This document shows, in pieces, positions 146 to 20,800 of a stretch of 24,250 bases of DNA. The notes beneath the pieces are model-generated. The model was not told the DNA's origin. It searched no databases and worked only from the letters and a program-made list of their open reading frames with translations. The translations under genes were made by a program, and so were the position numbers. How positions within the stretch are numbered: position 1 is the first letter of the stretch; each line of letters begins with the position of its first letter. The DNA comes from a virus. The stretch covers positions 1 to 24,250 of IMG/VR virus record IMGVR_UViG_3300027608_000149. One strand, 5' to 3'.

Positions 146-342
146 ACGACGACGTCGTAGCCCGTGCCGAAGAACGCCTCGACAAACTCCTGTGGGGCAA
201 GCCCGATGACACTTTCTCGGCGAGGGAACTGCTCTTCGTCATTGACCTGCCGGCCTTGATCAACGAAGTGAAGTCACTTCGTGTTCGGCTTGAAGAGGCG
301 CACGCAGAAGTCGCCACGCTCAAGACCAACGTCAAGTACTAG
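142..342 (+). CDS. small hypothetical protein, coiled-coil-like
   Basis: This is a 66-residue protein of unknown function. A GTG at 142 overlaps the methyltransferase stop in a GTGA coupling; a GTG one codon earlier (139) would also work. It is highly charged, and its second half (ALINEVKSLRVRLEEAHAEV) shows a heptad-like leucine/valine pattern suggesting a short coiled coil. No cysteines, membrane segment or known motif are visible. Its stop codon overlaps that of the oppositely oriented portal gene: both are formed from one CTAG at 339-342. Sitting directly after a methyltransferase it might be an accessory subunit, but that is only positional inference. Confidence 0.55.
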   Translation: MNDDVVARAEERLDKLLWGKPDDTFSARELLFVIDLPALINEVKSLRVRLEEAHAEVATLKTNVKY

Positions 343-2528
343 GAGACGTCAAACCTCAGTCTGCAACGGCAGTTGATGGTGAGGTGTGCCGGGGCCAACG
401 GGTCGCCTGGGAACCTGAGTTCGTACTGTCCGACCTTAAATCCGTCGGCAAGGGGAATCCTGTCGCCTTCAAGCAACCTGTGTTCTGAACGAACCTTAGA
501 GTCCTTGCGAGTTACCCAACGTTTACCGATTGCGCCCGCTTGCTTTCCTCCGTACCACATTCCTGCGTTGTATGCGGTCTGTGCCTCGTGTTCAGCGATG
601 GTGCGCTTCCTCTTGGCGAGAAGGTGCGCAAAGGTTGCGATGATGGCCGCCTTAAGAAGTACATGACCGTCTTCCTCATTGTCCTTCATCATTGCAACGG
701 CGACGATGATGGCCGCGGCGATCTCGTCCTTGGTGGAGTCGTTTGACTTCTCCATCCTCGCCATTTGCTCGTCCACATATTGGTCAACTTCTTCCTCGGA
801 GGAATCCATCGGCATACCGGTGCGTTCGTTGGCGGTCTTCATAGCGTCCTCAACGATGGACTTGACCAACGGTCTGACATCGTCGCGCATCTGCTTGTTC
901 CATACCTCAATGTCAAACACCTGCCCGACCTCCAGAGTCCCGGCAATCATTGCCTTCCTTGACTTTGCGCCGGTCGCTTTCTCAAGCACGACGCGCTGTT
1001 GGCGCTCAAAGAAACGTTCAAGGTTGTTGTCAAGGATCTCGGCCCACCTATCGGAGTCACCGAGTTCCTTGGTATCCCAAGAGTCATCCATGGTGTTGTT
1101 CGGTGCTTGCTTAGTTGCCCATGCGCCGACAGACGACGACGCCGATAACTCGGTGTCAGGTACGATCGCCGACTCTGGGGTTGCCATTGTTTCTCCGCCA
1201 GCGGTATTGACTTCACCCTCGGGTGGGAGTTCTTCCTGTGGCATTTCTGCTCCGGGCATAGGTGCGCCAGGCATACCAGGTGCGCCCATAGGTGCCGGGG
1301 GCTCGAGCTTCTTCTCGGTATTACCGATCGGAGTGAGGTTTGGGTTGGCGAGCATGGAGTCGGCTAACTCGGAGTCAACTTTTTTCCTGCCTGTACCGAG
1401 GCGATACTCGTTTGCCGTAATGAGTCCAGAGCCAAACTCTTGCATGAGGTAACGTTCGGCCTCATTCTTTGCCATTTGCAACACTGGTACGCCAGATACA
1501 TCGAAGTCAAAGTAGAGATCTGGATGAAGGGCGTCCATGCCCCTGGCAAGCATCTCGAGGTGCTGAGGCATCGTTTCAAGCCAGAATACCCTGGTCTCTT
1601 CTACGGCGTTGGAGAAAGTGCGTCCGGCAGCGTTGCCGATAACAGACTCAGGTACACCGAAAGCTGACAGGATCTCTTCTTTGGAGATCTGCCTCATCTC
1701 AATGTAGGACGCCTCGCGAGGCGACGCTCCTGTGTCAACGTAGTCCACTCCGTCAGACGAGGCAACGACTGATGTCGCACCGGCTCGACCGATGTTGCCG
1801 CGGAATCGTGACCTGAGTTCGTCCTTGTCGTCTTCGTCCATTTCGCCCTTGACGACCAATAGCCCACCTGGCCTGCCGTCATTCACGAGGAAGTTCCTGT
1901 TGTAAAACTTTGCCAGCGACTCAAGTTCAACGGCTATGCCAGCTGCCTCAAGTGGGGTCATGGACAAATAGGGGTCAAGTGGGTGTGGATGCTTGAACCA
2001 AAGGACGTCCTCGGGCTTGACATACTGAACCGACATATTGGGAAGCCTGACCTCAAAAGCAGAGACAAACTTTCTAGGATCAGGGATTGGCGATGTGAAC
2101 TGCGGGGGGAGTAGGTGGAGGGCGACAGGGTTGCCGCCGCGTCCCCTAATAATCTCAACGAACGCACCCCTGGTTGAGGTAAGCAACTGTGCCGAGAGCC
2201 TGTATCTGAAAGCAAATGAGTCTTCGCCAACATTCGCTCTCATGTTCAGAATGTCAAGAATGGCGGCATCTTTGACAACCTCGCCACCAGGCTTGTTGTC
2301 CTTATGGCCCATGATTGGCAGACGCGCCTGATTGCCCGCAATCGCGTCAATACAACGATAAACCCAGGTGACTTTCTTGACGCCGTCCCTATAGACCCTC
2401 TCAATATCCCATGAGTCGTGATAGCCACGGACTGAGTACGATGGGTTGGTCGAGATCGGCGCACCAGGCGGGATGACTTTGACTGAGTCGCTAGATAGTG
2501 ACTTATTTCCGCCGGTATTCCAGGCCAT
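339..2528 (-). CDS. portal protein fused to MuF-like head morphogenesis domain
   Basis: A 729-residue protein. Residues about 30-400 look like an HK97/SPP1-type portal: WVYRCIDAIAGNQARLPI near 55-72, a KPEDVLWFKH stretch near 171-180, the PLEAAG helix near 192, and ISKEEILSAFGVPESVIG near 281-298. Portals form the dodecameric ring through which DNA is packaged and ejected. Residues about 408-440 are a Pro/Met/Gly-rich linker. Residues about 490-729 are helical and end in a Mu gpF-like signature: TAYNAG, W-x-T-x-x-D-x-x-V-R-x-x-H, F-P-G-D-P and a final NCRCRLRF. MuF-type proteins are minor head proteins acting in head assembly or ejection. The ATG overlaps the stop of the 63-residue gene upstream by one base (TAATG). 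Portal and MuF are more often separate neighbouring genes, so the fusion is notable, as is the orientation opposite to the terminase. Confidence 0.9.
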   Translation of the reverse strand: MAWNTGGNKSLSSDSVKVIPPGAPISTNPSYSVRGYHDSWDIERVYRDGVKKVTWVYRCIDAIAGNQARLPIMGHKDNKPGGEVVKDAAILDILNMRANVGEDSFAFRYRLSAQLLTSTRGAFVEIIRGRGGNPVALHLLPPQFTSPIPDPRKFVSAFEVRLPNMSVQYVKPEDVLWFKHPHPLDPYLSMTPLEAAGIAVELESLAKFYNRNFLVNDGRPGGLLVVKGEMDEDDKDELRSRFRGNIGRAGATSVVASSDGVDYVDTGASPREASYIEMRQISKEEILSAFGVPESVIGNAAGRTFSNAVEETRVFWLETMPQHLEMLARGMDALHPDLYFDFDVSGVPVLQMAKNEAERYLMQEFGSGLITANEYRLGTGRKKVDSELADSMLANPNLTPIGNTEKKLEPPAPMGAPGMPGAPMPGAEMPQEELPPEGEVNTAGGETMATPESAIVPDTELSASSSVGAWATKQAPNNTMDDSWDTKELGDSDRWAEILDNNLERFFERQQRVVLEKATGAKSRKAMIAGTLEVGQVFDIEVWNKQMRDDVRPLVKSIVEDAMKTANERTGMPMDSSEEEVDQYVDEQMARMEKSNDSTKDEIAAAIIVAVAMMKDNEEDGHVLLKAAIIATFAHLLAKRKRTIAEHEAQTAYNAGMWYGGKQAGAIGKRWVTRKDSKVRSEHRLLEGDRIPLADGFKVGQYELRFPGDPLAPAHLTINCRCRLRFDVS

Positions 2529-2719: not shown

Positions 2720-2778
2720 ACTACCACCTTACATTCCTCATAGATGTGGGCAGGACAGATACTACTAGACGGAGTGAT

Positions 2779-4089
2779 ATGACCCAAGATTGGGAAGAAA
2801 TACTGCGGTTTCTGAAGCCAAAAGAACCACCGTACTGCCCCGAGAAGTCTTCGGTTCAGCAGCAGGTATTTCTCCGGACGAACGCCATGGAGGCTTTATT
2901 CGGTGGCGCAGCCGGCGGTGGCAAGTCTTCCGCTCTACTTATGGCCGCCATGCAATATGTGGATATTCCGGGTTATTCTGCCCTGCTTTTCAGGCGCACA
3001 CTTCAGGACCTCACCTTGCCCGGCGCCCTCATGGACCGTTTCCGAGAGTGGATTGCCCCTCACGACGATATTCGCTGGAACGCCAACACCTACACCGCAA
3101 CCTTTCCGTCGGGGGCAAGGATCGGCTTTGGCTACCTAAACAACAAGGACGACTACCTGCGTTACAAGGGTGTTGAACTTCAGTTCATCGGAATGGACGA
3201 AGTCACCGAAATCCGTGAGTCCGATTACCGTTACCTGTTCTCTCGACTCCGTCGTCCATCATCTGGCCCATTGTCTCAGGTTCCACTCAGAATGAGGTGC
3301 GCATCCAACCCCGCTCCGAACTGGGTTAGGCAAAGGTTTCTAGTTGAAGGGTCAACGCACGGCAGGATCTTCGTGCCATCCAAGTTGACCGACAACCCCG
3401 GCATTGACCCCGACTCGTACAGAAAGGCACTCGCCGAACTCGACCCGATTGAACGACGCAGGCTTGAGGACGGAGACTGGTGGGTTACATCCCTCGGCTC
3501 AATGTTCCAAAGGCAGGACTTTGTCATCATTGACCCATTTGAGATGCCCGAGTTCTCAACGAGTTCAGCCCGAGTGGTCAGGTTCTGGGACATGGCGGCG
3601 ACCGAGCCTTCGTACAGTAATCCCGATCCCGACTGGACCGTGGGTACGTTGATGATGTTTGACAAAGGCATCGCCTGGATCATGGACGTGAAGAGGATTA
3701 GGGGTAAGGGCGAAGCCGTAGAACGCCTCATTGCGCAGACGGCGGCCGACGATGGGCCGACTGTCTCAATCAGGGTGGAGCAGGAGCCAGGATCTGCCGG
3801 CAAAAACCTTCTTGACCAATACGCAAGGTATGTCGTCCCGGGGTATGACTTCATGGGCATCAGAGCTACCGGCGACAAAGCAACAAGGGCTAGGCCATTT
3901 GCCGCTGCTTGCGCCAACGGGAATGTGCGGGTGCTTGCTGGCTCGTGGCTGACCGAATGGCTTGACGAGATGTCGTCATTCCCAGAAGCCTGCAACCATG
4001 ACGACCAGGTGGACTCTGCCGTGGGTGCTTACACTTTTTTGGCAGGGCTTGGACTTCCTCAACGGAATCGTGTTACGATCATCGTCTAG
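2779..4089 (+). CDS. terL: terminase large subunit
   Basis: This is the DNA-packaging motor: an ATPase that pumps phage DNA into the prohead through the portal, plus a nuclease that cuts concatemers. From the ATG at 2779 it has 436 residues. Walker A is GGAAGGGKS at 42-50; the Walker B-like segment LQFIGMDEV is at 134-142 with D140 and catalytic E141. The C-terminal RNase-H-like nuclease has D271 in RFWDMAAT, a middle acidic position likely in VEQEPG (about 333-338), and D408/D409/D412 in HDDQVDSAVGAY. I chose 2779 because GGAG lies four bases upstream; the frame stays open to a GTG at 2746 with poorer spacing. It is divergent from the portal gene across about 59 bases. No small terminase subunit is recognised; the HNH gene at 6631 may assist packaging. 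Confidence 0.95.
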   Translation: MTQDWEEILRFLKPKEPPYCPEKSSVQQQVFLRTNAMEALFGGAAGGGKSSALLMAAMQYVDIPGYSALLFRRTLQDLTLPGALMDRFREWIAPHDDIRWNANTYTATFPSGARIGFGYLNNKDDYLRYKGVELQFIGMDEVTEIRESDYRYLFSRLRRPSSGPLSQVPLRMRCASNPAPNWVRQRFLVEGSTHGRIFVPSKLTDNPGIDPDSYRKALAELDPIERRRLEDGDWWVTSLGSMFQRQDFVIIDPFEMPEFSTSSARVVRFWDMAATEPSYSNPDPDWTVGTLMMFDKGIAWIMDVKRIRGKGEAVERLIAQTAADDGPTVSIRVEQEPGSAGKNLLDQYARYVVPGYDFMGIRATGDKATRARPFAAACANGNVRVLAGSWLTEWLDEMSSFPEACNHDDQVDSAVGAYTFLAGLGLPQRNRVTIIV

Positions 4090-9286: not shown

Positions 9287-9637
9287 ATGAAGACCAATAG
9301 GAACGCACCAATCAGCCAAGTAGACATTGAGGAAGAGATCATTAGGTTGATCGGCGACCTTGAGTCGGAGACGGAGACTTTTGAGACTCTGTCGATTGAC
9401 GCTGCCAAGAAAGAATCCCGGTTCAAGTCAGAGTGGGCCAAGGCGTACCTTTCGGCTCAGGGTTCAATCAAGGAACGCGAGGCCTGGGCCGACTATCAGA
9501 TATCTGATCCGCATATGGACTGGAAGATCGCCGATGCGTTAGTTCGTGCAAAACGCGAGAAACTCGCTAGCATCAGGTCGTCAATCGACGCGCTCAGAAC
9601 TCTGAACGCAAATGTCAGGGCGCAGGTGATGTCGTGA
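9287..9637 (+). CDS. hypothetical small helical protein
   Basis: 116 residues from ATG 9287, preceded by GAGGT five bases upstream; an open frame further left lacks a ribosome site. Predicted almost all helix. The middle (SEWAKAYLSAQGSIKEREAW) and end (REKLASIRSSIDALRTLNAN) resemble small helical proteins that I recall in replication/recombination regions of actinobacterial and other siphophages and myophages, but I cannot give them a function. Its stop overlaps the ParB-like gene start as GTGA, so the two are likely co-translated. It may be a DNA-binding or protein-binding helper of the recombination genes. Confidence 0.75.
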   Translation: MKTNRNAPISQVDIEEEIIRLIGDLESETETFETLSIDAAKKESRFKSEWAKAYLSAQGSIKEREAWADYQISDPHMDWKIADALVRAKREKLASIRSSIDALRTLNANVRAQVMS

Positions 9638-10413
9638 ACCACAACATCAACCCCGCACTTCAAGATCTTGCCCTGCCTGTTGAACTTCTCGAACCGTTGC
9701 CCGGAAACCCGCGCATCGGTAACGTCGACGCGATCGCGGCGTCCTATAAAGAGTTCGGGCAGGTCAAGCCCATCGTGGTGAAAGCACAGCCCGACGGCAC
9801 TTATGTCGTCGTAGCTGGCAACCACCAACTACAGGCGGTCAAGCGTCTCGGATGGTCTCATATTGCTGCCGTACAAATGGACGGCGATGACCAAAGGGCG
9901 GCTGCTTTTGCGCTCGTAGACAACAGGGTTGCTGACCTTGGGCGCACAGACCCGGCACTTCTCCACGACATCCTTTCAACAGTCAACGAAGATTTCTCCG
10001 AACTCTTTGAGGCAGTAGGTTGGGACGAGTACGAGGTTGCGTCCATTGGTACCGACCTGGAGGAGCTCTATAGTTCCATCAACGGCAACGGTGCCGCCGG
10101 CGCATATATCCCGCCGGTTCTCATGGATCCCGTCATGCCGATGGGTGTCGAGACTAGGGACGACGGAACGAAGCAGTACACCGCCCCTCCAGCCAGCGAT
10201 CAGAGGGCGACGGCGGCACAGGGTGCGGCGGCAGCTGGTTCTTCTGGTGGCGGCAAGCAAGCCGTATTCTCGTTCAGCCTCGTGTTTGATGACAATGCGC
10301 AGATGAGCAGATGGTGGGACTTTGTGAAGTGGCTCAGGGCGAGCCCTGCATACGACGGCGACACGATCGCATCCAAAGTCATGTCGTTCATTGACGCCCA
10401 CAGCGAGGTCTGA
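9634..10413 (+). CDS. ParB-like (ParB/Srx fold) domain protein
   Basis: 259 residues from GTG 9634. Residues about 14-100 form a ParB/Srx-type domain: ELLEPLPGNPRIGNVDAIAA, then the FGQVKPIVVK turn, then VVAGNHQLQAVKRLGW (59-74), which corresponds to the ParB box II-type G-[HN]-x-R/Q-x-x-A pattern; GNHQ replaces the usual G-H/E-R-R. Residues about 100-140 hold a helical region, about 160-205 an Ala/Gly/Ser-rich linker, and about 210-259 a small C-terminal domain (FSFSLVFDDNAQMSRWWDFV). Phage ParB-domain proteins act as DNA-binding factors, nucleases or parts of modification systems. It is not obviously a partition protein: no ParA is nearby and the helix-turn-helix is not evident. A second ParB-like protein lies at 11985. 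Confidence 0.85.
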   Translation: MNHNINPALQDLALPVELLEPLPGNPRIGNVDAIAASYKEFGQVKPIVVKAQPDGTYVVVAGNHQLQAVKRLGWSHIAAVQMDGDDQRAAAFALVDNRVADLGRTDPALLHDILSTVNEDFSELFEAVGWDEYEVASIGTDLEELYSSINGNGAAGAYIPPVLMDPVMPMGVETRDDGTKQYTAPPASDQRATAAQGAAAAGSSGGGKQAVFSFSLVFDDNAQMSRWWDFVKWLRASPAYDGDTIASKVMSFIDAHSEV

Positions 10414-10645: not shown

Positions 10646-10845
10646 CCGAGTTATGGCGCAAGGTTTTGACGAGCAAGTTTGGCCCCGAGATAGTCGTTGA
10701 GTGTTGCCGTCTACACAAAGGGCACTACAACGGAGGCAGATGGGGGAACTGCGGCAAGTGCGGCGCAAGACCCGTCATAGTTCCCATGACATGGGAGCAA
10801 GCAGACGAGAAGATGTCTCAGAATAAGGAGGACAACGATGTCTAG
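10642..10845 (+). CDS. small Cys/His-rich protein, putative zinc ribbon
   Basis: 67 residues from a TTG at 10642 that overlaps the previous stop (TTGA), with AGGAAG about nine bases upstream. Cysteines and histidines cluster in VECCRLHKGHYNGG and WGNCGKCGARP; the C-x2-C pair plus the upstream Cys/His residues could bind one zinc. It overlaps the PAPS-reductase-like gene by eight bases, and that gene's strong AAGGAGG site lies inside its last codons. It could supply a metal or nucleic-acid-binding function to the neighbouring enzyme. No family is recognised. Confidence 0.62.
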   Translation: MTELWRKVLTSKFGPEIVVECCRLHKGHYNGGRWGNCGKCGARPVIVPMTWEQADEKMSQNKEDNDV

Positions 10846-11983
10846 GCAGAGAATGTTCCTTGATATGTCATGCGTTGACGCAGCAAGGGAACGAATCAAA
10901 CACATCTACGACACCTTTGACACGGTGTGCATACAGTTCTCCGGAGGCAAGGACTCAACGGCAGTTTTGTACCTGGCGAAGGAACTCCACGAGGAGCGTG
11001 GCCTCGGGCCGGTGAAGGTCATATTCCGAGACGAGGAAATGGTCAGCCCACTCGTCGTTGACTTCATTGAGAAAGTCAGGAACTTTGACTGGGTTGATAT
11101 GGAGTGGTACTGCTTGCCCGTTGGGCAGGAGTGCTGGGTTCTCGGCAAGAGGGAGTATGTCTTGTTGTGGTCAGAGATGCGCAGGCTTCAGGGCAGACTC
11201 ATTAGGCCAATGCCATCGTGGGCAATCCACGCCGGGCATTTTGGGATGGGCGCAGATAAGCCACTCCCCGAGCCAATCGACTACTACACAATGCAAGGCA
11301 AGAAGGGGCGCACCGCTTTCATCACGGGCGTGCGAGCAAACGAGTCGATGGTTCGTTTCCGTTCGGTGGTGAACAAGTTGAACGAGAACTACATCACCAG
11401 GCCGTACAAACTTCAGAAGTCAATACCACTCATGCTTGCCAAGCCGATCTACGACTGGGTTGCAGCCGATGTGCTGAAGTTCATTCAGGAGGAGCACGGC
11501 GCAGAGTGGTGCGAGTACTACGACGTCGCCGCCATGGTTGGTGGTGTACAGCGTGTCGGCATCCCACTGCACTCGGTCGCAATCAGAAGACTAAGGGACT
11601 ACACGGCCGCCGAACCCGAGTGGTTTGACAGACTCTACGACTGCTTTCCTCAGGTGGATGCGCAGTATCGGCTCTGGCCCGAGTTTGATGTGGACGCCTA
11701 CATCGCCGACTATGCCGCCGACGGCTGGGACGGTGTGAAGAGGTGTATTGAGCAGAATATGCTCACTCCGGGAATCAAGAGGGCGGCACAGGCGGCCGTT
11801 GCTGACTTCAGGAAGAAGCACATCAACGACCCTGTCTCCTATCCGATCTCGTGGCTCATCAGGACATTGGTTATGAATGAGTTCCATACAACTTCGGCGA
11901 GACCCGTTGGGCCGAAGACTAAGGACTGGAAGAGGAAAGTAGCCGCCGAGCAGGAATATCTTGCGGCACAGGATGGAGAATGA
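10838..11983 (+). CDS. PAPS-reductase-like ATP pyrophosphatase (IbrA/DndC-type)
   Basis: 381 residues, with AAGGAGG six bases before the ATG. The N-terminus has the PP-loop SGGKDST (35-41), which grips the phosphates of ATP in ATP pyrophosphatases. FRDEEM (63-68), FITGVRANESMVRFR (161-175) and AKPIYDW (201-207) follow, as in the PAPS reductase superfamily. The region VGIPLHSVAIRRLRDYTAAE corresponds to the IbrA-type stretch after the core. The C-terminal E-C-G-L-H cysteine motif of assimilatory CysH is absent, so sulfate reduction is unlikely. Related enzymes activate substrates by adenylation: DndC in DNA phosphorothioation, TilS and TtcA-type proteins on tRNA. The next gene is ParB-like, as in IbrA/IbrB. 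The substrate is unknown; activity on nucleic acid is inference. Confidence 0.87.
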   Translation: MSRQRMFLDMSCVDAARERIKHIYDTFDTVCIQFSGGKDSTAVLYLAKELHEERGLGPVKVIFRDEEMVSPLVVDFIEKVRNFDWVDMEWYCLPVGQECWVLGKREYVLLWSEMRRLQGRLIRPMPSWAIHAGHFGMGADKPLPEPIDYYTMQGKKGRTAFITGVRANESMVRFRSVVNKLNENYITRPYKLQKSIPLMLAKPIYDWVAADVLKFIQEEHGAEWCEYYDVAAMVGGVQRVGIPLHSVAIRRLRDYTAAEPEWFDRLYDCFPQVDAQYRLWPEFDVDAYIADYAADGWDGVKRCIEQNMLTPGIKRAAQAAVADFRKKHINDPVSYPISWLIRTLVMNEFHTTSARPVGPKTKDWKRKVAAEQEYLAAQDGE

Positions 11984-14734: not shown

Positions 14735-15100
14735 GTGGCAAAGGTCTTGATCTTCAACATGACGCAAAAAGCCGTCGTCATCTCGTCCAGTGGGGCGATC
14801 GTAAAGGCTCGTTCAACCGCTGAGGCCGACTCGTCCGATCCCGTCTTGACATCTGCTATAAATAGTGGTCGTGTGGTGGTAAAGTCTGCCCCGCAACCTC
14901 CGAAGGCAGAAGAGCCCAAGGTAGAAGTAGTGCCAGAAGCACCGAAGCAGGAAGAAGCCCCAACCGAAACGCTGGTCGTTGAGGAAGAGGTTGAAGCGCC
15001 CGTTGAGGACTTAGGCGAGACAATGGGCGAAGAACCCGAAAACCAAGAAGAGAACAAGTCGAAAAGGCCATCAAGGCCAAAAGTGGCGAAGGAGAACTGA
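14735..15100 (+). CDS. small protein preceding tail sheath, acidic disordered tail
   Basis: 121 residues from GTG 14735, with TTAGGA about eight bases upstream. The first 50 residues (MAKVLIFNMTQKAVVISSSG and on to GRVVVKS) form a compact beta-type domain. The remaining 70 are Glu/Pro/Lys-rich (QPPKAEEPKVEVVPEAPKQE) and must be disordered. In many contractile phages a short protein of unknown function lies immediately before the sheath, as here; the stop and the sheath ATG share one base (TGATG). A role in sheath assembly or stoichiometry is inferred from coupling alone. Confidence 0.7.
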   Translation: MAKVLIFNMTQKAVVISSSGAIVKARSTAEADSSDPVLTSAINSGRVVVKSAPQPPKAEEPKVEVVPEAPKQEEAPTETLVVEEEVEAPVEDLGETMGEEPENQEENKSKRPSRPKVAKEN

Positions 15101-16578
15101 TGCCCGGCGTAGTCGTTAACACAGGAGTTAGAGTCGGAGGCACTGGGGTGGAAGTCGCCCCTAGTAGCACATTCTTCGTGGTCGGAACCGCGTTTCGCGG
15201 TCGTACTGCTACGCCGTTTGCTGTCCGCAGTATGGCAGATTTTGAGAACGAGTTCGGTGGATACGATTCTAACTGCACACTTCACCAACACCTAGAGACA
15301 TTCTTTGAGGAAGGTGGCGTTCGCGCCGTCGTTCAGAGGCTCGTCGGGCCAAGCGCAACTGCTGGAAGCAATACTTTCCTTGATGTTGATGAAGATGTTT
15401 GTATGACCGTTACGGCCGCAAACCCCGGCTCATGGTCGTCAAGTGTTGACGTGGAAATCATCAACGCCAGTACCACTTTCTCACTCGCAGTCAAGGTTGA
15501 CGGCGTTACTGTTGTGAGTTCGTCAAGTCTTGCGTCAACGGCGGCCGCAATCGCCCTCATCAACAACACCGCTCCTCACCTAGTAGTCGCTACCGCTGGT
15601 GCTTCAAGCCTGATGCTTGATACTCAGACCGAGACCCTTTCGGCGGGCGATGACGACATTGACAATGCCGCGTTTGATAATGCCGACTTTGTCGCTGCAT
15701 TAGACAACTTTGGTGATGATCTTGGCACTGGAGCCGTAGCAATCCCCGAAAAGAATGGCGCAACCATTTGGACCGGACTCAGGGATCATGCCGAAGCCAC
15801 AAAGAGGATCGCCATCTGTGGTTTTGATGAAGAAGATTCTGCAGATGATGCAATCACTTCGGCCGGCGGATACGCAGGTACTACTGCTGGCGAAAAGTCA
15901 GCAGCGAGCCATGTTGCCTTCTACTGGCCCATGGTGTCCGCACCTGACGGCAATGGTGGAACAAGGACACTCTCACCGGAGTCGTACGTAGCCGCAGTCA
16001 GGGCCAAGAACATCGTCGCCAATCGAGGACCATGGAAGCCAGCAGCAGGCATTTCGTCAGCCGCAAAGTTTATCGTTGGTCTCGTTTCGGATGGTTCTGC
16101 AACCAAGGTCAACAAGAGCGTGGGTAATGTTCTTGATGAGGGTCGTGTGAACGCAATCCGAATCATTGACGGACAGATCCGTATCTACGGTGCCCGTTCG
16201 GTATCGGCAGACGAGAATAACTGGCGGTACATCACCTACCGCGACACCGTCAATCAAGTCGCTACAACCTGTGAGAAGGCTCTTGAACAGTATGTGTTCA
16301 GCCCAATCGACAGCAGGAAGAATCTCTTCGGAGCAATCTCCTCAAGCATCACCTCAATCCTCGATACGGTCAAGGACAACGGAGGCCTCTACCCAATGGT
16401 GGATGCTTTCGGTTCACAAGTTGACCGCGGTTACTCCATTGAGGTTTCCGATGCGCTCAACCCAATCACCGAACTTGCCCAAGGCAAGATTGTTGCGAGG
16501 GTCGGCGTACGCGTCGCTGGAGTGGCCGACTTGATCACTCTGACGATTACGAAGTCAAGCCTCACGGCAGCACTCTGA
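15100..16578 (+). CDS. contractile tail sheath protein
   Basis: 492 residues. The start MPGVVVNTGVRVGGTGVEV, with PSSTFFVVGTAFRGRT after it, and the V-R-S-M-x-D-F-E-x-E-F-G-G pattern near 44-55 are typical of phage tail sheaths. The variable insert domain lies about residues 100-215. The C-terminal domain (INAIRIIDGQIRIYGARSV, DENNWRYITYRDTVNQVATT, then GYSIEVSDALNP and the closing strands VGVRVAGVADLITLTITKSS) is the conserved core that links sheath subunits into a helix around the tube. This identifies the virus as a myovirus: the sheath contracts to drive the tube through the cell envelope. The tube gene follows 19 bases later. Confidence 0.95.
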   Translation: MPGVVVNTGVRVGGTGVEVAPSSTFFVVGTAFRGRTATPFAVRSMADFENEFGGYDSNCTLHQHLETFFEEGGVRAVVQRLVGPSATAGSNTFLDVDEDVCMTVTAANPGSWSSSVDVEIINASTTFSLAVKVDGVTVVSSSSLASTAAAIALINNTAPHLVVATAGASSLMLDTQTETLSAGDDDIDNAAFDNADFVAALDNFGDDLGTGAVAIPEKNGATIWTGLRDHAEATKRIAICGFDEEDSADDAITSAGGYAGTTAGEKSAASHVAFYWPMVSAPDGNGGTRTLSPESYVAAVRAKNIVANRGPWKPAAGISSAAKFIVGLVSDGSATKVNKSVGNVLDEGRVNAIRIIDGQIRIYGARSVSADENNWRYITYRDTVNQVATTCEKALEQYVFSPIDSRKNLFGAISSSITSILDTVKDNGGLYPMVDAFGSQVDRGYSIEVSDALNPITELAQGKIVARVGVRVAGVADLITLTITKSSLTAAL

Positions 16579-16597: not shown

Positions 16598-17107
16598 ATG
16601 GCAAAGATTTCACAACGCCAGGTAGTCGCCAAAGTTATTGCCATCGCTGGCAAGGGCGGAGCCGACACGACATCAAACAGCTTCACCAGTTCCACGAGGA
16701 CTTATTTCTCGCAAGTTTCTGGCGGAGAGATTCAGGCATCCGTAGAAAAGGTGTACGACGGAGGCTCAACCTTCCCGGAAGTGCTCCCATCGGTCATTGA
16801 GGTCGGCGATGTCACCGTTACTCGACACTTTGACACCGTCATTGACGCACCCGTCATCTCCTACTACAGGGACAAGGTCGGCAAGCAATACTTCAGGGTT
16901 GAGATCTTGACGCTTGACGCAGACGGCAATCAGACTGGCTACACCCGCAAGTACGAAGACTGCATCCTCGTGAACATCACCGAGCCAGACGGCGACGCCT
17001 CTTCGGGTGGACCCGCAACTTTCTCATTGACTTTCTCGGTCAGCAAGTCAACCGACGTTGCCTACACCGGCACGACGACCACCCCCGCAACGACAGTCGT
17101 CTCCTGA
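16598..17107 (+). CDS. tail tube protein
   Basis: 169 residues, with AGAAGGAAC about nine bases before the ATG. All-beta, as expected for the stacked hexameric tube: VDYG-like turns, SGGEIQASVEKVYDGGSTF (40-58), VIEVGDVTVTRHFDTVIDAP and YFRVEILTLDADGNQTGYTR. The sequence ends in a Thr-rich tail (TGTTTTPATTVV). The combination of a strand pair early, a charged loop before P-E-V-L, and the position directly after the sheath gives a firm call. The inner tube protects the DNA path between head and host cell. Confidence 0.9.
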   Translation: MAKISQRQVVAKVIAIAGKGGADTTSNSFTSSTRTYFSQVSGGEIQASVEKVYDGGSTFPEVLPSVIEVGDVTVTRHFDTVIDAPVISYYRDKVGKQYFRVEILTLDADGNQTGYTRKYEDCILVNITEPDGDASSGGPATFSLTFSVSKSTDVAYTGTTTTPATTVVS

Positions 17108-17172: not shown

Positions 17173-17664
17173 ATGGAAGATATTGACAACGACGAAATGT
17201 ATTTGCGTTCAGCCAATGCTGGCGAAAGTACACTTGACAAACTGCGCAGCGAACTCACCAAGAAGGTGCGCCGACCCGAGATTTTCCTCGAGGTTCCAGA
17301 ACGACCCAGCATGGCGGTTCGTTACTCACCAAACATCAACCAGAACCAGGTTCGTGCATGGCGCAGGAACTCAGGCGAAGATACCAAGAACGGTATGGAC
17401 GCAACGAAGTTTGCTTGCTATGTACTCGCCAACACTTGTACGGGCGTCATTATGGACGGCGAACTTGCCAGAGACGAACGTGGCGCTGAACTCGTATTCG
17501 GGTCGGACGAAATCATGAAGATGGTTGGAGCGGATCGCGTACAGGAAGCCATCAGGGCTATCTACGTGGTTGAGCCACACATTGAAGCAACGGCACTTGC
17601 CGTAATGGAGGCAGCTGGGTTTAACGACTCAGTTGAGCAGGTGGACCCTACGAAGCAGCCTTAG
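17173..17664 (+). CDS. tail assembly chaperone (gpG-like)
   Basis: 163 residues, with GGAGG eight bases before the ATG. Located exactly between tube and tape measure, the slot of lambda gpG-like chaperones, which coat the tape measure while the tube polymerises. It is helical and charged: TLDKLRSELTKKVRRPEIFL (about 20-39), then FACYVLANTCTGVIMDGELA and DEIMKMVGADRVQEAIRAIY, ending ALAVMEAAGFNDSVEQVDPT. The last codons overlap a second reading frame that has no start of its own but a good gpT-like sequence, the hallmark of G/GT frameshift pairs. Function is inferred from position and frameshift architecture, since these chaperones share little sequence. Confidence 0.87.
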   Translation: MEDIDNDEMYLRSANAGESTLDKLRSELTKKVRRPEIFLEVPERPSMAVRYSPNINQNQVRAWRRNSGEDTKNGMDATKFACYVLANTCTGVIMDGELARDERGAELVFGSDEIMKMVGADRVQEAIRAIYVVEPHIEATALAVMEAAGFNDSVEQVDPTKQP

Positions 17665-17843
17665 ATTGGCTGCTTGAAGAACCCCACATCATCTCCTCGG
17701 CTCGGATCGCTGAGATGTTTCATATAGACCCTCTCGTTGTGCTCGGGTCAGACGACTTTGACTGGATGCTTCGGGTCGCTTGTGCTAAGGTGGTCGCACG
17801 CGACCATGAAGCTCAATCCAGTAAAATGAGGCAGGGCAACTAA
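17637..17843 (+). CDS. T domain of tail chaperone, made by -1 frameshift (gpGT)
   Basis: This frame is -1 relative to the chaperone gene and open from 17637 to the stop at 17841-17843. It has no start codon before the overlap. It encodes about 65 residues: GPYEAALDWLLEEPHIISSA, then ARIAEMFHIDPLVVLGSDDF and DWMLRVACAKVVARDHE. A W-L-L-E-E-P opening, an A-x-x-F-x-x-x-P-x-x-V-L helix and D-W-x-x-R-[VI]-A-C-A are typical of gpT-like chaperone extensions. It should be made as a GT fusion (17173-17843) at a low ratio to G. It fills the gap before the tape measure, as in other tailed phages. Confidence 0.85.
   Translation, partial: AGGPYEAALDWLLEEPHIISSARIAEMFHIDPLVVLGSDDFDWMLRVACAKVVARDHEAQSSKMRQGN
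17643..17675 (+). promoter_or_regulatory. programmed -1 frameshift signal (slip site plus stem-loop)
   Basis: The shift must occur between 17637 (last -1 stop ends at 17636) and the zero-frame TAG (17662-17664). The best slip site is G-GAC-CCT (17643-17649), where the proline tRNA on CCT can re-pair with CCC. Three bases later a perfect 8-base-pair hairpin begins: AAGCAGCC (17653-17660), a seven-base loop holding the first bases of the stop, and GGCTGCTT (17668-17675). The stem is a plausible stimulator. The heptamer is not a canonical X-XXY-YYZ. Confidence 0.6.
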
Positions 17844-17876: not shown

Positions 17877-20800
17877 TTGAGCATGATCCCAGGGGGTGCT
17901 GACGCATCCGTAAGCATCAAGGTTGATGTCGACGACGCAGGTGCGCAGGCACGGATTGCGGCCCTAGAGGCACGCCTCAAGGCTCTTGAGAAGCAGTTCG
18001 GCGGCACTAGCAAGGGTGCCCAAAACTACGGCAAGCAACTTGACGATGTCTCCAAGAAAACGGGGGGCAACGACAAGTCGCAGAAAAACCTAATGAAGTC
18101 GGGCCAGGCCTTGGGTCAAATGTTCGGCAGGCTCGGTAAGTTTGCCAAGTTTGCCGGCATTGAGCTTGCGGTTCTGACCGCCGGGCTGGGTGCAATGAAG
18201 CTCGCCCTCTGGGCCGGTCAAACCGCCATGAAGGGATTTCATGCTCTACTGCGTGCTACTGGCGCCGCGGCCGGTGTCGCCGTAGGTGCGATAGCGACGG
18301 TTCTGGCCGCCATAAGGGAGGTACAGGCTGTCAAACTTGCCCCAATCCTTGGAGGGGTAGGCAACGCCAAAACACAGAGTAACGCTTTCTTTGCCGATAG
18401 GCGCTTTGCCATGTTTGATCAGAAGACGATGGCGAGCATTATGCAGTCGGCCGCCGAACAGGGTCAAGTAATCGACGCATCGTTCCGAAATCAACTTGCC
18501 GGGCTCGCCAACTACTCGCTTGGCGACCCCAAGAAACTCGCCAGTATTCAGAAAGTATTTCAGCAGGTACAGAAGGACGGCAAGGTTACTGCGAAGACCT
18601 ACGCCGAACTACAGACCGCATCGCCTGCGTTGGCTAAGGCGTTTGACGAGATGGCCGGTGGAACAAAGAAGGGCGAGGCCGCAGCCAGGGCTGGATCTGT
18701 CACCTATAAGAAGTTTTTTGACACGGTTCAAGAAGGAAAACTCAAGGCACTCGAGCCATTCCAGGGTGCTCTTGGCAACATCAACGACACCCTGATGGCT
18801 AGGTTCAAGGGTTCGGTAATGGGTGTCAAGGAGCAGCTCACGAGGATGGGCGAGCCGTTGCTTAAGGGCTTTAAGAGGCCGCTCACGATCATTGAACGCG
18901 AGATCAGCCTCTTCATCTTGAAGATCAACGGCACAGTCGGCAAGGTATTCCCAACTTTGTTTGACGTAAAGGACGCAGGCAACAACTCCATCACGAGAAT
19001 GTTTGACAAGTTAGCCAACTCAGTCAATACAAACATGGGCAAGATCTCTGGCTGGTATGCGTCGTTTAAGACTTGGGGTCAATCCGTCAGGGACTTCTTT
19101 GGTGGTACGGGTGATGTGCTGAGGAAGTTTTCAACTGGCTGGGATAGGCTCTACGCCAAGATCCTCAAGCCAATCGGTAGCGAGTTCAACAAGACACTCG
19201 GCCATCTATTTACTGAGTTCAATAAAACAATCAACTCGGCCCCGTTAAGTTCATTTGAGACGGCAATCGGGAACATTGGAGACATCGTCAGAAACCTGAT
19301 TACTGGTTTCGCTCAACTCAAAGTCGTCATGGCCCCCATAGTCTCGTCGTTCCTAAATATGGCCGCGGCAATCTCAAAAATCACTAGCATCCCTGGACTA
19401 CAGATGATCCTCCCTTTGCTCCTCATGGGCAAACTCATGGGGCGGGGTAGAAAACCCGAGAGCACCACGTATGGCGCAGGTGGTGCAATGCTCAGTCAGA
19501 CCTACAAGGGTCGCGGTCCCATGGGTGGCATGGGCGCTGCGGGAATGGGTGCCTCCATGTTTATGTCTGGCGGTATGGGCGGAGGCGGAATACTTGGCTC
19601 GCTAATGATGCCACTGATGATGGGCATGTCTGGTTTCGGCATGAACACCAAGTACGGGGCATCAAGTGTTGGCAACTACGCAGCAAACCGCGAGGCCGGT
19701 GCAGGTAGGCTGCCTTCGCTTGCCATGTCCGGCAATCTTGGTTACGGACTTGCCAGCAATATGCGTGGAGGTATGGGTCTTGGTGCGTCTGCATTATTGA
19801 GTGGTTCAAGTTCTCGTAGTGCAATGGCCAATGGCTTCACCAATAGGAGGGGGCAGACTATCCAGGGCTCTGTAGCGGCAACGCAACAGGCCAGGATTGA
19901 CGCCATCATGAAGAATAGGGCACAGAGGGCGTCGTTGCTTGGCAAGACCGCGGCGGGCATGTCTCCGCATGCGTACCTGCAGTCAAAGGGATTCGTCTTT
20001 GACCCAGTTCAACAGGGTTACAGAAACTCCGCCACTGGGCAAGATTTCACCAACGACGAGGCAATGGCTCATGCCAAGGCAGAGCAAGGCAAAGTTGCGA
20101 AGGGGACGATCGCAACTCGAAGGGCCTCAAACGAAAAGGTAATACAACAGGGCAAACTTCAAGCAATAGCCACCGGGAAGGCACAGGGTCAGGCGGCGGG
20201 TAAGGCTTTCGTTAAGGACGCTGGGGCGAAGTTCGGCAAGGCCGCTGGCGCAATGGCGGCCACGGTCGGTGCGACCATGCTTGGCGGATACATCACTCAA
20301 AAGGCGGGAACGAACAAGGGGATGGCGGCCGCTGGTGGAGCCCTCTCTGGGGCTGGCATGGGGGCCTCAATGGGTGCGGCATTTGGTCCGTGGGGGATGC
20401 TCGCCGGCGCAGTCGGTGGAGGTATATTCGGGGCGATCTCGGGGTGGAGAAACGCCGAAAAGTTACGTAGGCAAAACACGGTTACATCCGTTCAGAATGT
20501 TCAGAGTCAAATCACTGGCGACAACTTATTCAACAGGCAGTCTGATTTCACTACTGCTCAAGCCAATGCCGATATGACGTATGAGGAAATAGCAAAACTT
20601 AGTGGTCTGAGCGGTGGAGGACTTAAAAAACAGATTGCCGACCTTGAGGCGCAGAGGGATGCAAATAACTTTGACACCGTGTACACAGAAAGCCTACCGG
20701 CAGCAGTCAAGGGCTTTATTGACTTCGCTGGTAAGGCCGGCTTCACGCCCACCTCACTACCGGTCGACGTCGGTACCACAAACGCAGATGGTAGCTACAC

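Follow-up and report, generated by a model that had tools for sequence, protein, structure and literature searches.

Long-tailed dsDNA phages make their tail chaperones G and GT by a -1 frameshift of the lambda G-T type (Xu, Hendrix and Duda 2004, as cited in PMC2628397 and PMC5009743). The slip site is usually an X_XXY_YYZ heptamer built from runs of A, T or G, and Y in the original heptamer tends to be A or U (PRFect, PMC10885494). A review by Atkins and colleagues (PMC5009743) accepts G_GA in place of XXX for insect flaviviruses, umbraviruses, dianthoviruses and mesoniviruses, and names Z_ZZN as the smallest -1 site. The GGAUUUU site of PEMV shifts well, and blocking of re-pairing in its P site lowered the shift to 36–40% (PMC4737148).

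The DNA analysed here (the window) is a virus record of 24,250 bases. An earlier note on it had proposed a -1 frameshift at GGACCCT, with a downstream stem, in the tail chaperone G/GT pair. Conservation in relatives supported this proposal. We consider it very likely, from comparison of the sequences, that a programmed -1 frameshift makes the chaperone G and, from a fraction of the ribosomes, the fusion GT.

The tail chaperone locus in the window

The window had a contractile-tail gene order of sheath, tube, G, -1 extension and a very long ORF. The tail genes were as follows.

15100..16578, + strand: tail sheath (PHROG 23 tail sheath, E=1.9e-43)
16598..17107, + strand: tail tube (PHROG 5102 tail tube, E=5.2e-25)
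17173..17664, + strand: G, tail assembly chaperone, zero frame, 163 aa (PHROG 5088 'tail assembly chaperone', E=3.4e-19)
17649..17843, + strand: T, the -1 frame extension, 64 aa, from TAC 17649 to TAA 17841-17843 (conserved T domain in relatives)
17877..22571, + strand: tape measure protein, 1564 aa (assigned by its position after G/T and its length; no PHROG hit)

The sheath match showed the predicted tail to be contractile. G lay between the tail tube and the tape measure, was homologous to annotated chaperones in Arthrobacter, Gordonia and Brevibacterium phages, and the order of G, T and tape measure matched the annotated order in isolates. Outside the tail genes, a portal gene fused to a Mu F-like domain was found at 339-2528 (- strand), opposite in strand to the terminase (2746-4089) and the tail genes. 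The region separating the head-packaging module from the tail module encoded a PAPS-reductase-domain protein (10838-11983, + strand) beside a ParB_N-domain protein (9634-10413).

In the zero frame, G ended with TAG at 17662-17664. The -1 frame was closed by TGA at 17634-17636 and then open from 17637 up to TAA at 17841-17843. The features of the junction were as follows.

17637..17661, + strand: the sole stretch open in both the zero and -1 frames (from the sequence)
17643..17649, + strand: putative slip heptamer G_GAC_CCT (at the same place in 143 of 143 distinct junctions, as GGACCCT in 118 or as a re-pairing variant)
17653..17660, + strand: 5' arm of the downstream stem, AAGCAGCC (stem kept in the 7 closest relatives)
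17668..17675, + strand: 3' arm of the downstream stem, GGCTGCTT (stem kept in the 7 closest relatives; class-wide structure excess here)

The two frames were therefore open together only in one short stretch, 17637-17661, in agreement with the earlier note (which gave 17637-17664, with the stop codon). Within it, only CCT (17647-17649), with a C before it, re-paired fully after a -1 step. GGACCCT, which had been put forward as the best candidate, was thus the only -1 re-pairing site in the overlap. The heptamer occurred once in the window, against about 3 (3.2) occurrences expected by chance, so that its presence alone was meaningless. What counts is its place and its conservation.

GGACCCT does not fit the canonical X_XXY_YYZ, since GGA lacks three identical X bases. 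It fits the intermediate heptamer G_GAY_YYZ, with G_GA in the P site and YYY (CCC) in the A site, followed by T. By codon-anticodon rules, applied apart from any host tRNA set, the step from CCT to CCC gives full re-pairing with tRNA-Pro(GGG), and that from GAC to GGA gives partial re-pairing, namely G:C, then G.U, then a mismatch. There were no tRNA genes in the window.

In the proposed mechanism, the P site would hold tRNA-Asp, paired with GAC, and the A site would hold tRNA-Pro, paired with CCU. Both tRNAs would move back by one base, onto GGA and CCC. tRNA-Pro (GGG) would gain a Watson-Crick G-C pair and lose a G.U wobble. tRNA-Asp would retain its first-position G-C pair, plus a G.U at the second position. 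The stem-loop just 3' of the site would stimulate the slip. The next -1 codon would be TAC (17649), giving ...VEQVDP-YEAALDW... and a predicted GT of 159 + 64 = 223 aa.

The locus thus resembled the lambda-type G/GT in having a short G that follows the tail tube and precedes the tape measure, a -1 overlap and a conserved T extension. It differed in its putative slip site, G_GAC_CCT. The ORF position, the conserved overlapping -1 ORF and a re-pairing site in the overlap were all found, as in the G/GT tail-chaperone frameshifts.

Conservation of the junction in relatives

The first IMG/VR scan with G gave 53 loci, 44–100% identical. Further scans, together with a phage collection, gave 256 loci with a recognisable G, of which 143 were distinct at the junction and formed 62 clusters at 80% identity. 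The collection scans were run from a closer alignment; the 26-sequence alignment that included isolates was too diverse. The named relatives were Arthrobacter, Gordonia and Brevibacterium phages. A contig search of genomes with G produced just one MAG contig (JASLZV010000001.1, our L144), which was binned in a Phycisphaerae MAG and carried a G/T of this phage type. It may be a virus contig that was placed in that bin, and is therefore weak evidence for a host.

In all 143 distinct junctions, T followed in the -1 frame and the same place allowed re-pairing after a -1 step. The heptamers were GGACCCT (118), AAACCCT (7), CGACCCT (5), GGACCCG (4) and AGACCCT (4), and GGACCCC, TGACCCC, TGACCCT, GGATTTT and AAGCCCT (one each). 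GGACCCT was thus conserved, which the earlier note had suggested checking, and re-pairing variants took its place in the rest. It was found in IMG/VR contigs and Arthrobacter phages, down to about 25% identity of G. The most constant element was C_CCN, in 142 of the 143.

Some of the variants were closer to textbook sites. A_AAC_CCT, in seven junctions, is fully canonical; its AAA was seen in the L105/L132 clade. In Bendigovirus and Cantare, a canonical heptamer, C_CCT_TTG or C_CCT_TTA, lay one codon downstream; the P-site codon of Cantare, which had C_CCT_TTA, was AGC. One relative, L214 (2400-2430), had G_GAT_TTT, in which CCT had become TTT and GAC had become GAT, and G_GA was kept. This replaced with Phe a Pro that was conserved everywhere else at the slip site. 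L214 provides a natural experiment on the heptamer.

G_AAG_GGG, a second potential -1 site, was present 9 nt downstream of the main site in L211, L213, L217, L223, L224, L229 and L233, and also in L241, L243, L244, L251, L252, L255 and L256. It may serve as a reserve where the main site is a weak A_GAC or T_GAC.

The positions of stop codons in relatives bore on where the frame changes. In DalanDe (L063) and L229, the -1 frame was blocked as far as the CCC codon by a TGA that overlapped GAC. In ArV1 (L056), L021 and L028, a zero-frame stop followed one codon after CCT. With the family taken as one, these two kinds of stop confine the predicted shift to CCT or the next codon. The next codon of ArV1 (CAC, TCA in the -1 frame) is unable to re-pair, which leaves CCT as the probable shift codon in this phage.

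The T domain was conserved in contigs and isolates alike, among them records in which a -1 join is annotated. The annotated GT joins of the Gordonia phages GMA6, Schomber and UBSmoodge (Bendigovirus group) had homologous G and T and a -1 join at the same place; unlike the window, these phages carry the canonical C_CCT_TTG one codon downstream. The lengths of the Gordonia GT joins in GenBank fit a -1 shift. In most Arthrobacter relatives, G was annotated alone, and T was either unannotated or a separate small ORF. The GT fusion was unannotated in the GenBank/RefSeq records of Arthrobacter phages L056, L058, L060, L061, L064, L145-L152 and L162-L166. Many records of Arthrobacter phages (Klausavirus, Marthavirus, Vibakivirus and others) are predicted to contain GT fusions that lack annotation.

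T might instead be initiated independently, inside or after G, and the window does have an in-frame ATG at 17715 (a 42-aa ORF). On the other hand, the first 40 codons of T contained no in-frame ATG in 44 of the 62 clusters, and L049, L132, L061 and L148 lacked any ATG, GTG or TTG there. Such initiation would also leave the nucleotide conservation of the heptamer unexplained. For the family it is already contradicted by these sequences, and we consider it highly improbable.

Sequencing error or a pseudogene could likewise split one ORF, the window being a metagenomic contig. This was ruled out by the recurrence of the frame break: the same break, with the same heptamer, was present in more than 100 independent assemblies and also in sequenced isolates, which makes the probability of such an artefact negligible. 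No other conserved site was found, and the start codon of the second frame was not conserved, so that none of the outcomes named beforehand as speaking against a programmed frameshift was encountered.

The two halves of the proposed slip site

The earlier note had held that the site relies mostly on one codon. The base preceding GAC did not bear this out. It was G in 51 of 56 clusters (80% identity), where synonymous codon usage for the amino acids concerned would predict 15.1; elsewhere in these genes, 97 of 454 GAC codons (21%) had a G before them. The preceding amino acid varied (V, E, L, A, S or T), so that selection acts on the base. When the P codon was AAC or AGC, the preceding base was A. 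A Glu before the site was encoded by GAG if the P codon started with G (9/9 clusters) and by GAA if it started with A (3/3); exceptions were four unclustered junctions with GAA before GAC. Shared ancestry was left uncorrected in these cluster counts, so that their P values overstate independence.

Five GAC clusters lacked the preceding G, and four of them were partly explained by another site. Three were Gordonia clusters (Schomber-type, GMA6 and DalanDe), in which CCT_TTG creates the canonical C_CCT_TTG one codon on. The L229 cluster had G_GGG downstream, as did L252, L255 and L256. The Abba cluster had no alternative site.

We interpreted these patterns as selection on the P-site half as well. 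Re-pairing of tRNA-Asp in the P site would matter, and the predicted slip is not a one-codon slip.

Slippage of a single tRNA would have only tRNA-Pro on C_CCU re-pair, as on a Z_ZZN tetramer, with GAC a bystander kept for a conserved Asp. The constancy of C_CCN and the standing of Z_ZZN as the minimal -1 site (PMC5009743) agree with it. So do the junctions that had neither a re-pairable P-site base nor a canonical neighbour: Abba with C_GAC_CCT, L200, L252, L255 and L256 with A_GAC_CCT, and L229 with T_GAC_CCC. It is countered by the strong bias at synonymous positions towards G before GAC and towards A before AAC or AGC, by L214, in which C_CC changed to T_TT together and G_GA was retained, and by the Bendigovirus and Cantare exceptions, which carry the canonical C_CCU_UUR instead. 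We regard it as unlikely. The tetramer A_AAG of IS1222 (PMC5009743) is similar in that the A-site tRNA re-pairs on three identical bases; it differs in that Z is C here and the preceding base is selected, which points to a heptamer.

For tandem slippage, a close parallel is the G_GAU_UUU of umbravirus PEMV2, insect-specific flaviviruses, dianthoviruses and mesoniviruses. These sites share with the window the G_GAY_YYZ layout, the partial re-pairing of tRNA-Asp in the P site, the full re-pairing of the A-site tRNA and a 3' RNA structure, and L214 has the same heptamer. The P-site effect in PEMV matches the P site here, which appears favoured and not essential. Unlike these eukaryotic-virus sites, the present one has Y = C, a strong GC codon and a bacterial setting. 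The site is not an unprecedented solution, since G_GAU_UUU is established in several eukaryotic viruses (PMC5009743, PMC4737148), and it very probably belongs to the known 'intermediate' class (G_GAY_YYZ), in a C-rich version.

In the open-access literature searched, we found G_GAC_CCU nowhere described as a shift site. PRFect (PMC10885494) names no XX-Y-ZZZ pattern among its motifs, and frameshift finders that use X_XXY_YYZ or these motifs are expected to miss the site.

We lean slightly to the view that G_GAC_CCU is a -1 class of ancient origin, stably kept in contractile tails of the actinophage type. Its strong GC codon would slip efficiently, and lineages would have shifted among overlapping heptamers (GGACCCT, AAACCCT, GGATTTT and CCCTTTG) about a fixed point. 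If true, an efficient CCU to CCC slip would contradict the usual A/U rule for the A-site bases of the standard heptamer. The natural variants of this C-rich, non-textbook site would be ready-made mutants for the contribution of each tRNA in bacteria.

RNA structure downstream of the site

A perfect 8-bp hairpin at 17653-17675, three bases after GGACCCT, had been described in the earlier note and was confirmed. Its loop (17661-17667) holds the zero-frame TAG. Perfect 8-bp stems with a 3–10 nt loop occurred at just 4 separate places in the 24 kb. The 81-nt context of the hairpin folded better than shuffled sequences (z -2.4). Rfam gave no match at the G/T junction, and inspection by eye for an upstream Shine-Dalgarno-like stimulator revealed nothing consistent.

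Slippage at GGACCCT could be real and the hairpin a mere by-product of the coding sequence. Tested against synonymous recodings, the stem of the window was not exceptional on its own (z -1.1, p 0.17). Several isolate relatives had no clear simple hairpin or strong fold, and the position and strength of the stem varied; both are in keeping with a by-product.

The family as a whole argued otherwise. On average, the fold became weaker when T was recoded synonymously after the zero-frame stop: the mean z was -1.39 both for the 45 contig clusters and for the 17 isolate-type clusters. A uniform test on the 62 clusters gave z of -1.25 to -1.35 right after the site (p about 1e-11), compared with -0.3 to -0.5 within G; at 60, 90 and 120 nt into T it was -0.49, -0.28 and +0.13. 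The structure excess was limited to the first ~60 nt past the site, which speaks against a by-product. With the covariation described below, this makes the by-product reading unlikely, and a stimulatory stem-loop remains the preferred one.

Compensating changes in the stem, proposed earlier as a check, were present in part of the family. In the closest relatives of the window (spacer 3, different register), 7 of 8 stem pairs never varied, and no covariation was seen in this nearly invariant stem. In two related clades, one stem register was kept, with 84% of cells paired, compared with 24–39% when the arms were slid; the register was chosen from the same sequences, which favours it somewhat. 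There were 22 double-change cells in these clades, compared with 7.0 in shuffles, as expected from compensatory pairs.
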